Source: a virus | DNA length: 42,984 nucleotides | Direction: 5' to 3' (one strand) | Virus record (IMG/VR): IMGVR_UViG_3300046740_000068 | Location: 1-42,984 of that record | Shown: piece by piece, positions 11,758 through 20,743 of the stretch | Position numbering within the stretch: position 1 is the first letter of the stretch | How the letters are laid out: the number at the start of each line of letters is the position of its first letter | Notes under the pieces: model-generated | The model's database searches: none | The model's input: only the letters and a program-made list of their open reading frames with translations | Told to the model about the DNA's origin: nothing | Translations under genes and position numbers: made by a program

Positions 11758-12324
11758 TCACGATTTCAGCGCCAAATCGTAAATAAAACGATGCTTTGAG
11801 ACTCTTTGACGCCTGATGGTGTCTACGCCTAATGGCACATGTGATGCTCTACTGTAACGCTTTCCATTCTCGGCGTTTACAAGATCGTATCTGTCTCTCT
11901 TGTCTCCGGTCATACCATCAGGTGTGAAATTCGCGGCGCGATAGATCGTGCCTTGATGACCAACTGAAGGATCAGCATACGTGACGATTATTCCAACGTC
12001 GCGATGATGTTTTTTGATGTATTTGATGCTCTGAGAAATAAGCCACGTTTCACCGTTCTGTGGAACTTCGTCCCCAATCCATAGACGTGCCATTTCCCAT
12101 GTCAGCACACCATATCTCACTGATGTTTCAGGAGGAGGAAGCGCGTAAATAATCATGCCGCAGGAGAACACATCACGGAGCATCATTAGTGCGAGCGTTA
12201 CCACTCCTGGCCGCGTGCCGAGATAATGAAGCCTGATAAATTCAGAGACATCTCTTGTTGAGCAAGGACACACAGAGCACGACTGCCGCCATTCGCGATT
12301 AAATACAGGACGTTCAGGCTTCAT
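11758..12324 (-). CDS. Mom-like DNA adenine modification enzyme (GNAT fold)
   Basis: This 188-residue protein resembles phage Mu Mom and its many phage relatives, acyltransferase-fold enzymes that convert adenine to a bulky N6-modified base resistant to restriction. Diagnostic segments seen: RLHYLGTRPG (31-40), WEMARLWIGDEVPQNGET (near 76-93), and YADPSVGHQGTIYRAANF (116-133), the conserved core of the family. The C-terminus is basic. Cysteines at about 16, 19 and 21 (CSVCPC) could bind metal. It overlaps the upstream 92-residue gene by 11 bases. The gene is visibly richer in A and T than its neighbours, suggesting recent acquisition. The exact modification made here is not known. Confidence 0.8.
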   Translation of the reverse strand: MKPERPVFNREWRQSCSVCPCSTRDVSEFIRLHYLGTRPGVVTLALMMLRDVFSCGMIIYALPPPETSVRYGVLTWEMARLWIGDEVPQNGETWLISQSIKYIKKHHRDVGIIVTYADPSVGHQGTIYRAANFTPDGMTGDKRDRYDLVNAENGKRYSRASHVPLGVDTIRRQRVSKHRFIYDLALKS

Positions 12325-12598: not shown

Positions 12599-12627
12599 AG
12601 TGTATTCTAAACAGAATCGGTTGTCAA
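12599..12627 (-). promoter_or_regulatory. Predicted promoter with shared inverted repeat, Mom operon
   Basis: The -35 TTGACA is at 12622-12627 and the -10 TACACT at 12599-12604, with a 17-base spacer. The spacer contains the inverted repeat ATTCT-N4-AGAAT (12604-12617), also found in the promoters at 15225 and 16645. The -35 lies inside the end of the VRR-NUC gene. Repressor or activator binding between -35 and -10 is inferred. Confidence 0.65.
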
Positions 12628-13032
12628 CACCCTAATCAATTCCTCTTCGCTCCGCACGATGCGCCCGATGCCGCCATCGACCACGACGGCATCAATCCAC
12701 GCCTGCTGCCGGCGTAGATGGTCGGCCTGCGTGGTGTCGCGGCCTGGCTTCTTGACCTCGATGGCGGTGAATACGGCCACCTTCTGCCCGACCATCTCCG
12801 GCGTGATGATGCGCACCTGATAGCCGACGAGGTCGCTGCTGCCGACGCCGAGGCCAAATGTGATCCATCGTCCCCAGCTATCCTTAAGCCTGCCGACCGT
12901 GTTTCGCATGAGCCGCGTGCGGTAGAACGATGCGGTTCTCGTGCAGCGCTCAAGCAGGTTCGATTCCTCGCGCTTGCGCGGTATCGGCGTGTGCTTCGCG
13001 ATGAGGGCTTGGAGCGCGGTATCCTCAGCCAT
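12607..13032 (-). CDS. VRR-NUC domain nuclease
   Basis: This 141-residue protein starts at the ATG at 13032 (TAATG with the upstream stop). It shows the VRR-NUC layout of the restriction-endonuclease-like superfamily: GSSDLVGY with the metal-binding Asp, a beta strand ending AIEVKKPGRDTTQADHLRRQ (Glu-x-Lys catalytic pair), then AVVVDGGIGRIVRSEEE. Stand-alone VRR-NUC proteins in phages are thought to process branched DNA such as Holliday junctions. It would act in replication or recombination next to the VapE module. Length is usual for the phage type. Confidence 0.85.
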   Translation of the reverse strand: MAEDTALQALIAKHTPIPRKREESNLLERCTRTASFYRTRLMRNTVGRLKDSWGRWITFGLGVGSSDLVGYQVRIITPEMVGQKVAVFTAIEVKKPGRDTTQADHLRRQQAWIDAVVVDGGIGRIVRSEEELIRVLTTDSV

Positions 13033-13727
13033 TACAGTGAACACACGCGGCAAGCTGAATTGTTGACTCGCGTATCGCGCGGCACGTCACCAGCCTCGAA
13101 CCGCTCGCGAAGACCACGCAATGACGCCGGCCACGAATCGCGCTGGGCTGAGCGGAACGTGTGTCCGTGCTTCTCTTCAAGGCCCACACCGTGCTCGTAG
13201 CGGTCAGGATGCTGCCGCCAGAGTTCCCACCATTCAATGAGCCTCTGGCCGTAGCAGAGCGCACAATCCGTTCTCGCAGGCACCGTGACGCCTTGCTCTG
13301 AGAGGTAGGAGAAGACGCGGCTGATGTCCCATCCCCATTCCCTGAGCGGATAGCGGTATGTCGCGTAGTCGCCGTAGAGCCCGACGCGCGACTCTTCATC
13401 AGCCCGCAGCCCGACGAGTAGCGATGAGCCAGGATGCCTGACGAGCCACGCGATGCACGGCTCAATCTTGATCTGTCGCGTGCACCACCGCATCCTGAAG
13501 TTTGGCAGCGCATCGTGGAAGTCGATCCACTCCATCAGCGACCGATTCGGCGGCATCACGAGCGGACGGTTCACACGTTTGACGATGGCCGCGATGTGTG
13601 CATCAAGCGCTGGTAGTTCATCGCCTGTCGGCGTGAAGAGCAGCGTGAAATCCTCGCCGAGTTCAGCGAGTCTGAGAGCGCAGGCTGTGGAATCCTTCCC
13701 GCCAGAGAACGCAAGGAATTGCGTCAT
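13032..13727 (-). CDS. PP-loop ATPase, PAPS reductase / DndC-like
   Basis: This 231-residue protein has the nucleotide-binding motif SGGKDST at residues 8-14, characteristic of adenine-nucleotide alpha-hydrolases including PAPS reductase and DndC. Further landmarks are RMRWCTRQIKIEPC near 105, LVGLRADEESR, and paired cysteines DCALCYG and SACRVCSL at the C-terminus, which may hold metal. Such genes are common in tailed phages, where their substrate is usually unknown. Placement with Mom-like and nuclease genes raises a role in DNA or tRNA modification, but sulfur transfer is not demonstrated. It overlaps the upstream gene by ATGA. Confidence 0.8.
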   Translation of the reverse strand: MTQFLAFSGGKDSTACALRLAELGEDFTLLFTPTGDELPALDAHIAAIVKRVNRPLVMPPNRSLMEWIDFHDALPNFRMRWCTRQIKIEPCIAWLVRHPGSSLLVGLRADEESRVGLYGDYATYRYPLREWGWDISRVFSYLSEQGVTVPARTDCALCYGQRLIEWWELWRQHPDRYEHGVGLEEKHGHTFRSAQRDSWPASLRGLRERFEAGDVPRDTRVNNSACRVCSL

Positions 13728-16644: not shown

Positions 16645-16673
16645 TTGACAACGTATTCTAGTTAGAATACAGT
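16645..16673 (+). promoter_or_regulatory. Predicted promoter with shared inverted repeat, recombination operon
   Basis: TTGACA (16645-16650), a 17-base spacer and TACAGT (16668-16673), with the perfect inverted repeat ATTCT-AGTT-AGAAT at 16655-16668. An AT-rich stretch lies directly upstream (16622-16640), possibly an UP-like element. It drives the operon 16694-21197. Confidence 0.7.
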
Positions 16674-17073: not shown

Positions 17074-17259
17074 ATGACACATTACATTCCGCCATTCACC
17101 AGAATCAACGGACCGAAGCAGGAGACAGTCTGCAAGACCTGGATTCGTCCGAGCGAGCACAGCAACGAGCCGACGTGCGCGACGTGCCAGCGCTGGCTGG
17201 AGCAGGACGCGGCAGACACTCGGACGGCTGAGGAGATGTTTGGCGAGGTGCAGTCATGA
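17074..17259 (+). CDS. Small cysteine-containing protein
   Basis: This 61-residue product has three cysteines (VCKTW, then CATCQRW) that could form a partial metal site. The second half is acidic and helical (LEQDAADTRTAEEMFGEV). Its stop overlaps the next ATG. Unknown function. Confidence 0.5.
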   Translation: MTHYIPPFTRINGPKQETVCKTWIRPSEHSNEPTCATCQRWLEQDAADTRTAEEMFGEVQS

Positions 17260-17480
17260 AGAAGATCACCTACGGATTCATGGTTTACATCACGGCTGAA
17301 GAGGCCACAGACGACGATGGCTTCACTCCGCAGGAGGTTGAGCGTCTACTGAAGACCACGCTCAACCACTACAGCGGTCCGCTTAACAAGGAGCGCCTCT
17401 CGCTGTCGGTCGATTACGAACTCGTGTCCACTACGGATGTGCCAGATGTCGTCTACGTGGAGGTGCCAGTTGTCCGATAA
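17256..17480 (+). CDS. Small acidic protein, unknown function
   Basis: The 74-residue product begins MKKITYGFMVYITAEEA, has a helix with TPQEVERLLKTTLNHY, and ends in a Val-rich strand (DVVYVEVPVVR): a ferredoxin-like alpha/beta pattern. ATGA overlap with the previous gene, and an 11-base overlap with the FEN-RecT gene. No family recognised. Confidence 0.55.
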   Translation: MKKITYGFMVYITAEEATDDDGFTPQEVERLLKTTLNHYSGPLNKERLSLSVDYELVSTTDVPDVVYVEVPVVR

Positions 17481-18993
17481 GCTCGTCCTCATCGACCTGT
17501 CTGGCATCGCGCATCCGATCTTCCACATGCAGGACGGCGACAGCAACCCGAACGCGGTCAGCACCGCGATCGTGGAGCGCATTCGAGCGATGGCCTCGGC
17601 ACATCCGCACGTTGCCATCTGCTGCGACAGCGGCCGGTCGTTCCGCAAGGACATCGACCCTACGTATAAGGCGAACCGTCAGGACAGCGACAAGGACGCC
17701 GAACGCGCACGCATCCGGCATCAGATTGACCTGGCGACTGAGATTCTGCGCGGCGACGGCTTCCCGGTGTGGTCCGCGAAGGGTTTCGAGGCAGACGACC
17801 TGATTGCGAGCGCGGTGCATTCAGAGCTATTGAACGTCAAGAACCTAGACGATTCATTGCTCATCATTAGCCCTGACAAAGACCTTCGCCAACTCGTCTC
17901 AGAGCGCGTCAACGTGCTGGCCCCGGCCAACGGCGACAGGCCAGAGAAGCTCTACGACGCCGAATCGGTCTACCTGAAGCACGGCGTCACGCCGAACCAG
18001 CTCACGGACTACCTCTCGCTTGTCGGCGATACGTCCGACAACATCCGAGGCGCGAAGGGCATTGGCGAGAAGACCGCCGCGAAGTTGATTACGCAATACG
18101 GCAACCTTGATGACCTGTATGCGGCCATCGACGCCGGCACGACGGACATCAAGCCGGCTGGTCTGGCCTCGCTGACCGAGTTCCGAGAGCGCATGGACAC
18201 GGTCCGGTCGCTGATTCGGCTGCGGACCGACGCGCCGCTGCCGTTCGAGGAGATATTCCGAGAGCGCGTGCCGCAGGATGTTGCGGTGTTTGGGGAGGAC
18301 GAGATGGAGGACGACATCGAATACGCCATGCCGACGCTGGAGGCTGGATTCCCGCAGGGGATTATCGACGTGGAGCCGCAGAAGGCACCGGAGCCGGAAA
18401 TGCCGAAGATGGAAGAGACCTATCAAGGCGACACGGTCGTCACTCGCATCGGCACGTTTAAGACGAACCAATCACTCGCGGTACAGCCGGCCGAATGGGA
18501 ACGCGGGCTAGAACCACGGTCGATGGACGAAGCCGTGAAGCTGGCTGACAGACTGATGGCTTCGCGGCTGTTCAGCGCATACGGCCATCCTGCCGGCATC
18601 CTCGCCACTGTGCTCGCCGGCCGCGAACTCGGCATTCAGGCAATGGCATCACTGCGAGCGTTCCATATCATCGAAGGGAAGCCGACGTTGAGCGCCGGGG
18701 CTATCGTCGCGCTCATCATGAAATCCGGCAAGTCGGAATACTTCCGGCCCGTCGAGCGCACCGCAGACCGCGCCACGTTCGTGACGAAGAGACATGGCGA
18801 CCCTGAGGTGTCAATGACGTTCACCATCGAAGAGGCGAAGCAAGCATGGTCGAAGGACGCCGCCGCGTTCGGCAAGAGCGCCTGGGGTAAGCATCCGGCC
18901 GACATGTGCGTGGCGCGGTGCTCATCGAAATTGGCACGGCTCGTCTACCCTGACGTGGTGTTCAACCTGTATGCGCCTGAGGAGTTCGACTGA
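17470..18993 (+). CDS. Fusion of FEN-type 5'-3' nuclease and RecT-like annealing domain
   Basis: This 507-residue protein starts with TTG at 17470 after a GGAGG site. Residues 1-270 are a complete FEN/Pol I 5'-nuclease: VLIDLSG, DIDPTYKANR (61-70), GFEADDLIAS (105-114), ISPDKDLRQL (133-142) and GDTSDNIRGAKGIGEKTA (186-203), retaining the metal-binding acidic residues and the helix-hairpin-helix. A Pro/Glu-rich linker (about 300-320) follows. Residues 350-507 resemble RecT-type phage annealing proteins: AVLAGRELGIQAMASLRAFH region, IIEGKPTLSAG, then KHPADMCVARCSSKLARLVYPDV. Usually these activities are separate genes, as in Red alpha/beta or RecE/RecT. One chain would couple end resection with strand annealing. 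No internal stop or frameshift is seen. Confidence 0.85.
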   Translation: MSDKLVLIDLSGIAHPIFHMQDGDSNPNAVSTAIVERIRAMASAHPHVAICCDSGRSFRKDIDPTYKANRQDSDKDAERARIRHQIDLATEILRGDGFPVWSAKGFEADDLIASAVHSELLNVKNLDDSLLIISPDKDLRQLVSERVNVLAPANGDRPEKLYDAESVYLKHGVTPNQLTDYLSLVGDTSDNIRGAKGIGEKTAAKLITQYGNLDDLYAAIDAGTTDIKPAGLASLTEFRERMDTVRSLIRLRTDAPLPFEEIFRERVPQDVAVFGEDEMEDDIEYAMPTLEAGFPQGIIDVEPQKAPEPEMPKMEETYQGDTVVTRIGTFKTNQSLAVQPAEWERGLEPRSMDEAVKLADRLMASRLFSAYGHPAGILATVLAGRELGIQAMASLRAFHIIEGKPTLSAGAIVALIMKSGKSEYFRPVERTADRATFVTKRHGDPEVSMTFTIEEAKQAWSKDAAAFGKSAWGKHPADMCVARCSSKLARLVYPDVVFNLYAPEEFD

Positions 18994-19602: not shown

Positions 19603-19832
19603 CCACATGGCCACTCCGCAACGGACCTGACCTGCCGGAAGCCGCTGTGCTGTTCGCGCTGGCGCTCGAGCGCGACGGCCACACGCTGTCGGTGCAGACG
19701 ACGCTCGACAACCGCAGCGATCTACTGGTGTCGAATCGCTCGACGCTGACACGCGAGCAACTCGCAGGCATTAAACAACATCGGAAGTCAATCCTAGCGC
19801 TGCTGGCGTATGACGCACCAGAACCGCGATGA
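19596..19832 (+). CDS. Small helical protein, docking-domain-like
   Basis: The ATG at 19596 overlaps the previous stop and gives 78 residues. The sequence LFALALERDGHTLSVQTTLD followed by TREQLAGIKQHRKSILALLA resembles short helical modules (TubC docking-like) seen in phage replication operons. It overlaps the methyltransferase start by ATGA. No function assigned. Confidence 0.55.
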   Translation: MVATWPLRNGPDLPEAAVLFALALERDGHTLSVQTTLDNRSDLLVSNRSTLTREQLAGIKQHRKSILALLAYDAPEPR

Positions 19833-20743
19833 TAATCAGAGCCGATGCACGGCACATCCCGCTCATCGATGGCTGCGTGCAGTGCGTAGTGACGTCGCCA
19901 CCGTATTGGGGCTTGAGAGACTATGGCAACAGTGAGCAGATCGGACTGGAGTCGAAGCCAGACCTGTATGTGGCCGCGCTAGTCGCGGTGTTTCGCGAGG
20001 TGTGGCGCGTGCTCCGGGACGATGGGACGCTGTGGCTGAACTTGGGGGATAGCTATAACAGCAGCAGTCAGTTCAACCACGATGTCAGCGGCTTGTCGTC
20101 AGGCGCGCGCTATTCGGAAGGCACGCCGACGCAGTGGCCCGGTCATCGCGCGCTGATTCCCGGCCTCAAGTCGAAAGACCTCGTCGGCATCCCCTGGCGC
20201 GTCGCGTTCGCGCTCCAGGCCGACGGCTGGTATCTTCGCAGCGACATCATCTGGCACAAGCCGAACCCGATGCCGGAATCCGTCACCGACCGCCCGACGA
20301 AGGCGCATGAGTACCTGTTCCTGCTCGCGAAGTCGGAGCGGTATTCCTACGACGCGGTGGCGATTGCGGAACCCACGACGGAGCCACAGTTTCGCCTGCG
20401 CGTAGATCCAGCTATGCGTAAGGGTCGCTCTGACGATCGAGTTGATGGGGTGTCCAACTGTGGCGTAGGCGTATCGCGCAATAAGCGCAGCGTCTGGACT
20501 ATCCCCACGATGCCCTACGCTGGCGCGCACTTCGCGACGATGCCGGAAGCGCTGGTCGAGCCATGCATCCTGGCTGGTTGTTCGGTCGGCGGCATGGTGT
20601 TCGATCCGTTTCTCGGCAGTGGCACAGTTGGCGCGGTCGCTGAACGTCTCAGTCGCCGATGGGTTGGCACTGACCTGAGTTATCATCATCTCGCTACGAA
20701 GCGCACATCGCAACGAGGCTTAATATTCTCAGAGCCGAGATGA
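19829..20743 (+). CDS. DNA methyltransferase, N4-cytosine/N6-adenine type
   Basis: This 304-residue SAM-dependent enzyme has catalytic motif IV TSPPYWG (22-28) near the N-terminus and SAM-binding motif I FDPFLGSGT (258-266) near the C-terminus, the permuted beta-class order. Other landmarks are LWLNLGDSY, YLRSDIIWHKPNPMPES and RWVGTDLS. SPPY is used by both N4-cytosine and N6-adenine enzymes, so the target base cannot be decided. No matching restriction enzyme lies next to it, so self-protection or regulation is likely. Full length, no missing motif. It overlaps its neighbours by ATGA. Confidence 0.92.
   Translation: MIIRADARHIPLIDGCVQCVVTSPPYWGLRDYGNSEQIGLESKPDLYVAALVAVFREVWRVLRDDGTLWLNLGDSYNSSSQFNHDVSGLSSGARYSEGTPTQWPGHRALIPGLKSKDLVGIPWRVAFALQADGWYLRSDIIWHKPNPMPESVTDRPTKAHEYLFLLAKSERYSYDAVAIAEPTTEPQFRLRVDPAMRKGRSDDRVDGVSNCGVGVSRNKRSVWTIPTMPYAGAHFATMPEALVEPCILAGCSVGGMVFDPFLGSGTVGAVAERLSRRWVGTDLSYHHLATKRTSQRGLIFSEPR

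Follow-up and report, generated by a model that had tools for sequence, protein, structure and literature searches.

In the Lambda Exo/Redbeta and RecE/RecT systems (EATR, SynExo), a 5'-3' nuclease of the PD-(D/E)XK fold is coupled to a separate annealase of the RecT/Redbeta family, and the partners of the RecE/RecT and λ pairs are not interchangeable (PMC5052646). Residues 1-177 of Redbeta are enough for annealing and residues 178-261 bind λ Exo (PMC9512822); in truncated Redbeta annealing remains, whereas recombination is abolished (PMC5052646). Known SSAPs have been described as featuring an N-terminal annealing domain and a partner-binding C-terminal region (PMC11783212), and a survey reports that Firmicutes RecT proteins are typically paired with an exonuclease of the RecE/ExoVIII type (PMC8093625). 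RecT-like proteins of actinophages (Giles gp53, Adora gp56, Thermobifida P1312), which are among the closest isolated-phage relatives of the annealing core described here, are likewise encoded by a gene of their own near a RecE gene and carry a long C-terminal tail, unlike that core. A second family of 5' nucleases, FEN/53EXO, includes T5 D15 FEN, T7 gp6 and the 5' nuclease domain of PolA, none of which has an annealase attached. In T7, the FEN-type exonuclease is paired with the annealing protein gp2.5, whose OB fold sets it apart from RecT proteins.

The window analysed here, the whole of a 42,984-base virus record that encodes P22-like portal and coat proteins, features a gene in which a nuclease and an annealase are covalently joined in one polypeptide (Table 1), an arrangement identified in 42 records including this one. 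Compared with the Lambda Exo/Redbeta and RecE/RecT systems, the annealing core is homologous; the nuclease, however, has the FEN/53EXO fold in place of the PD-(D/E)XK fold, and the core is C-terminal and without the partner-binding region. Both domains and the idea of pairing them are familiar; the departures are the type of nuclease, the single chain, the C-terminal position of the core and the lost tail. The 507 codons run uninterrupted from the TTG to a stop codon ending at 18993, the start of the frame being overlapped by an upstream gene (17256-17480). The initial annotation had described a Pro/Glu-rich linker within one open frame, and the frame indeed crosses this region without a stop or frameshift, the linker being modelled as disordered; across the family it measures 49-121 aa, and little of its sequence is shared.

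Table 1. The fused gene, its translation signals and its parts, in positions of the window.
Feature	Position	Strand	Basis or remark
Shine-Dalgarno sequence GGAGGTG (GGAGG at 17459-17463)	17459-17465	+	5' of the TTG start; read directly in the sequence
Fused FEN-RecT gene, 507 aa, TTG start at 17470	17470-18993	+	Open frame; same layout in 41 other viral loci
FEN/53EXO 5' nuclease domain, residues 1-268	17470-18273	+	Pfam PF02739 and PF01367; matches to Taq, T5 and M. smegmatis Pol1/FEN; Foldseek
Pro/Glu-rich disordered linker, residues 270-346	18277-18507	+	pLDDT < 50
Possible internal ATG start, residue 279, behind GGGGAGG	18304-18306	+	Would yield a free annealase; unproven
RecT/Redbeta single-strand annealing core, residues 347-507, without the usual C-terminal tail	18508-18990	+	Profile, fold and tail comparison

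A sigma-70-like promoter match (TTGACA, 17, TACAGT; 10/12) lies at 16645-16673 on the plus strand, ahead of the rightward cluster that holds the fusion gene. A DNA methyltransferase is encoded at 19829-20743 on the same strand, and the DNA matches to isolated phages listed for positions 1-25000 of the window fall here, at about 80% over 0.2 kb. Elsewhere, the minus strand encodes a Mom-like DNA modification protein (11758-12324; Pfam Mom, 2.1e-22) and a PAPS-reductase-like protein (13032-13727) overlapped by a VRR-NUC-like nuclease gene (12607-13053), the latter two possibly acting in DNA modification or junction processing.

Membership of the N-terminal domain in the FEN/53EXO 5' nucleases is established by homology, by fold and by nine metal-binding acids. 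The window nuclease is matched by the Pfam families 5_3_exonuc_N (1.9e-25) and 5_3_exonuc (2.2e-24) and by a PHROG exonuclease profile (2.3e-38), so that the FEN nuclease first proposed for residues 1-270 is supported with a boundary within a few residues of that proposal. Its nearest PDB sequences are Pol I 5' nuclease domains and M. smegmatis FEN, and its nearest folds by Foldseek are plastid exonuclease, ExoIX and T5 FEN. The catalytic acids D9, D53, E107, D109, D110, D136, D138, D187 and D190, common with Taq Pol I and agreeing in position with the Taq alignment, are kept in all 41 aligned fused proteins, as are the positions of R59, Y66, K67 and R70.

The C-terminal core is placed among the RecT/Redbeta homologues by sequence homology and by the Rad52-like fold predicted for it. 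PHROG RecT-like profiles match it at 8.5e-17 and 1.7e-9; Pfam RecT reaches 0.0034 on the window protein alone, below the gathering score, and E<=0.01 in 33 of the 38 members of the domain alignment (best 3.7e-9). When the family profile was compared with the PDB, Redβ177 was the only significant match (E 6.7e-6), with the residues W..P..M...ARL..G.Y..E common to both, and the annealing-family profile also picks up RecT proteins of isolated phages, Giles gp53 among them, at E of about 1e-14 to 1e-39. The model of the core (pLDDT 92.7) features a three-stranded sheet followed by a long helix, for which the first-ranked PDB structure in Foldseek is Redbeta (7ujl; E 4.9e-4, probability 1.00, with a modest TM-score of 0.54) and the second Listeria A118 RecT (7ub2; probability 1.00, with a modest TM-score of 0.43). 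An annealase of RecT type had been anticipated at residues 350-507, and profile, fold and homology concur to within a few residues; assignment of this region to another, non-annealing family was examined and is ruled out by the PHROG RecT-like matches, the Redβ177 profile match and Foldseek. The core does not share the N-terminal placement described for known SSAPs, lying behind a nuclease of 270 aa and ending in a tail of 0-12 aa (median 3 in 41 fused proteins, two of which, L005 and L045, end at a contig edge and are uninformative on the tail). It is nevertheless filed under the RecT homologues, since N-terminal placement is a general description of SSAPs and not a criterion of homology.

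When viral contigs were searched with the annealing domain, 12 loci were recovered, 11 of them fused; searching with the full-length alignment raised the number to 41 fused IMG/VR loci besides the window, all with the same one-frame architecture that the initial annotation had suggested looking for in other phage genomes; full-length identity extends down to 27%, and the 41 include near-copies (for example L001/L005 and L042/L043). The nuclease domains of the fused proteins form one clade with support of 100/99 and the annealing domains one clade with weak support (81/59), for which a single origin of the fusion is the simplest and probable reading. Two other long FEN reading frames, L069 and L087, pair together in the FEN tree outside the fused clade, and a third, L065, is PolA by Pfam. 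Within the family, dN/dS in eight pairs of relatives is 0.09-0.57 (nuclease), 0.06-0.35 (annealase) and 0.26-0.80 (linker); both domains are under purifying selection, and the linker is looser. Together with the clades and the low identities, this marks the fusion as old and conserved. In two pairs, dS differs between the gene halves (L037/L039: nuclease 0.23, annealase 2.25; L002/L004: nuclease 0.18, annealase 0.63), as if phages had exchanged annealing domains, the junction lying close to the linker. A P22-type portal was detected by Pfam in about half of the 42 fused records and was weak or absent in the rest, some contigs being fragments; perhaps the fusion occurs in more than one type of virion, or perhaps the portals are highly divergent.

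The fusion was not found in 50,697 phage records, in 72,556 plasmids or in 781 sampled genomes from two bacterial groups, and among genome contigs, searched with patterns that lay in the nuclease half, no match extended to the annealing core. Compared with a library of predicted viral structures, the protein has as its top match UniProt A0A6J5MUB0 (uncultured Caudovirales phage, 462 aa; 510 alignment columns, 40% identity), whose entry title, 'PIN_53EXO domain containing protein', refers to the nuclease domain and mentions neither an annealase nor a fusion; this entry is probably an instance of the fusion that a database already contains. No description of a RecT-FEN fusion was found in the open-access literature.

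Unfused relatives of the core provide the context in which the fusion can be read. A RecE/ExoVIII-type gene lies directly upstream of the unfused homologue in Thermobifida P1312, Gordonia SmokingBunny, Giles, Propionibacterium E1, Mycobacterium prophiT36-2a, Hilltopfarm, Erwinia phiEt88 and Escherichia phiv142-3, and a RecE-type gene is one gene away in Adora; in Microbacterium Pickles13, the homologue stands behind a gene annotated 'exonuclease', and no exonuclease neighbour is annotated in Komagataeibacter phiKX1, Salinibacter 10_1 or Rhizobium RHph_TM3_3_3. The contrast drawn at the outset with two-protein RecE/RecT systems is thereby upheld, and both arrangements have one order in common, the nuclease being upstream or N-terminal and the annealase downstream or C-terminal. 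Neither YqaJ (matched in the control genomes of E. coli and B. subtilis) nor DUF3799/RecE (matched in the positive controls P1312 and Adora) was detected in any of the 42 fused records, of which 27 are at least 35 kb; several are fragments, where the absence of RecE is weaker. Since the unfused relatives pair with RecE-type resection exonucleases that are missing from the fused genomes, a replacement of resection is suggested. The PolA polymerase domain was also detected in none of the 42 records; the nuclease is therefore not serving a phage Pol I, and the fusion as the replication partner of a phage PolA is rejected. Two loci (L079:2265-4708 and L062:2495-4717) feature separate RecT and FEN genes within about 0.4 kb of each other with one small gene between, RecT coming first, in the opposite order to the fusion, and so show the partnership in two-gene form; they were considered as direct ancestors and rejected, their FEN proteins falling outside the fused clade.

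The C-terminal tail offers a second comparison. In 16 unfused homologues, the tail after the conserved core measures 59-241 aa and often comprises a linker and a further stretch, helical by eye; by analogy with Redbeta, such tails may dock a nuclease. The simplest reading is that fusion would have rendered a docking tail unnecessary, although L194, an unfused homologue in a bacterial genome, has a tail of 13 aa with no FEN gene seen within the 2.3 kb read, so that fusion need not accompany a short tail.

The fused protein is probably a one-chain exonuclease-annealase recombinase doing the work of RecE/RecT or λ Exo/Redβ, with covalent linkage replacing docking. The linkage itself points to a functional pairing of the two domains; the activities, their order and the linkage standing in for docking are inferred. 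At breaks or phage ends, the N-terminal FEN-type nuclease would strip the 5' end to expose 3' single strands, on which the RecT/Redbeta core, held by a flexible linker of ~75 residues, would load before annealing them to a complementary strand. Any 5' flaps remaining after this step may likewise be trimmed by the nuclease, and the linkage would take over the docking that Redbeta makes via its C-terminal domain. That the FEN nuclease took the place of RecE, and covalent linkage the place of docking, is the best reading of these comparisons. The fuller version, in which a FEN replaced a RecE-type exonuclease, the tail became dispensable and one enzyme resects, anneals and trims, maybe without host- or phage-specific partner contacts, is held tentatively, with confidence a little short of even. 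Such a protein may be a self-contained recombination enzyme, as first proposed, and host proteins may assist it. Because FEN enzymes favour flaps and nicks, usually with lower processivity than lambda Exo, their resection may be weak, or host enzymes may do it instead. Redbeta-type annealases assemble as long helices, into which subunits each carrying a 30 kDa N-terminal domain might not fit.

One alternative is a role confined to back-end processing, in which the RecT core mainly targets and anneals, the FEN domain merely trims 5' flaps, and host nucleases (RecBCD/AddAB, RecJ) make the 3' strands. The flap specificity of FEN enzymes, the flaps that arise when partly overlapping strands anneal and the lack of a phage PolA in the 42 records all fit this role; it is nevertheless unlikely, as the absence from the fused genomes of the RecE-type exonucleases that accompany unfused relatives suggests that resection itself was replaced. 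Distinctly less probable is an Okazaki-fragment or replication-fork factor for which recombination is a by-product of RNA primer removal and lagging-strand annealing. Primers are removed by the FEN homologues in PolA, SSAPs act at lagging-strand gaps, and the window encodes a VapE/primase-helicase-like protein; the helicase gene, however, is elsewhere and on the other strand, the fusion gene sits in a plus-strand cluster of small genes and a methyltransferase, and no fused record has a PolA polymerase.

Production of separate working nuclease and annealase proteins, by processing or by internal initiation, is very improbable. In 17 of 35 fused genes, the window's among them (18304), the first part of the linker contains a Shine-Dalgarno sequence with an ATG, and the raw count seemed enriched; against synonymous-codon shuffles, however, the 17 sites seen compare with a mean of 13.1 and are reached in 28 of the 500 shuffles (in 4 of them when genes are counted), leaving a weak excess in a region picked post hoc, and GGAG tends to arise from the acidic linker peptide itself. 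The window has two in-frame linker ATG codons behind GGAG-type ribosome-binding sequences, at 18304 and 18400. An assembly artefact or frameshift fusing two adjacent genes, conceivable for a single metagenomic contig, is refuted by the 41 other loci, which have different linkers and the same one-frame architecture.

The fusion is an exception to the published generalisation that all SSAP annealing domains are N-terminal (PMC11783212). The need for the contact between λ Exo and Redβ is incompletely understood, and a natural fusion without the tail is a ready-made test of physical coupling. In hosts where efficiency suffers from mismatched partners, a recombinase that brings its nuclease along in a single gene could also serve as a portable tool for recombineering.
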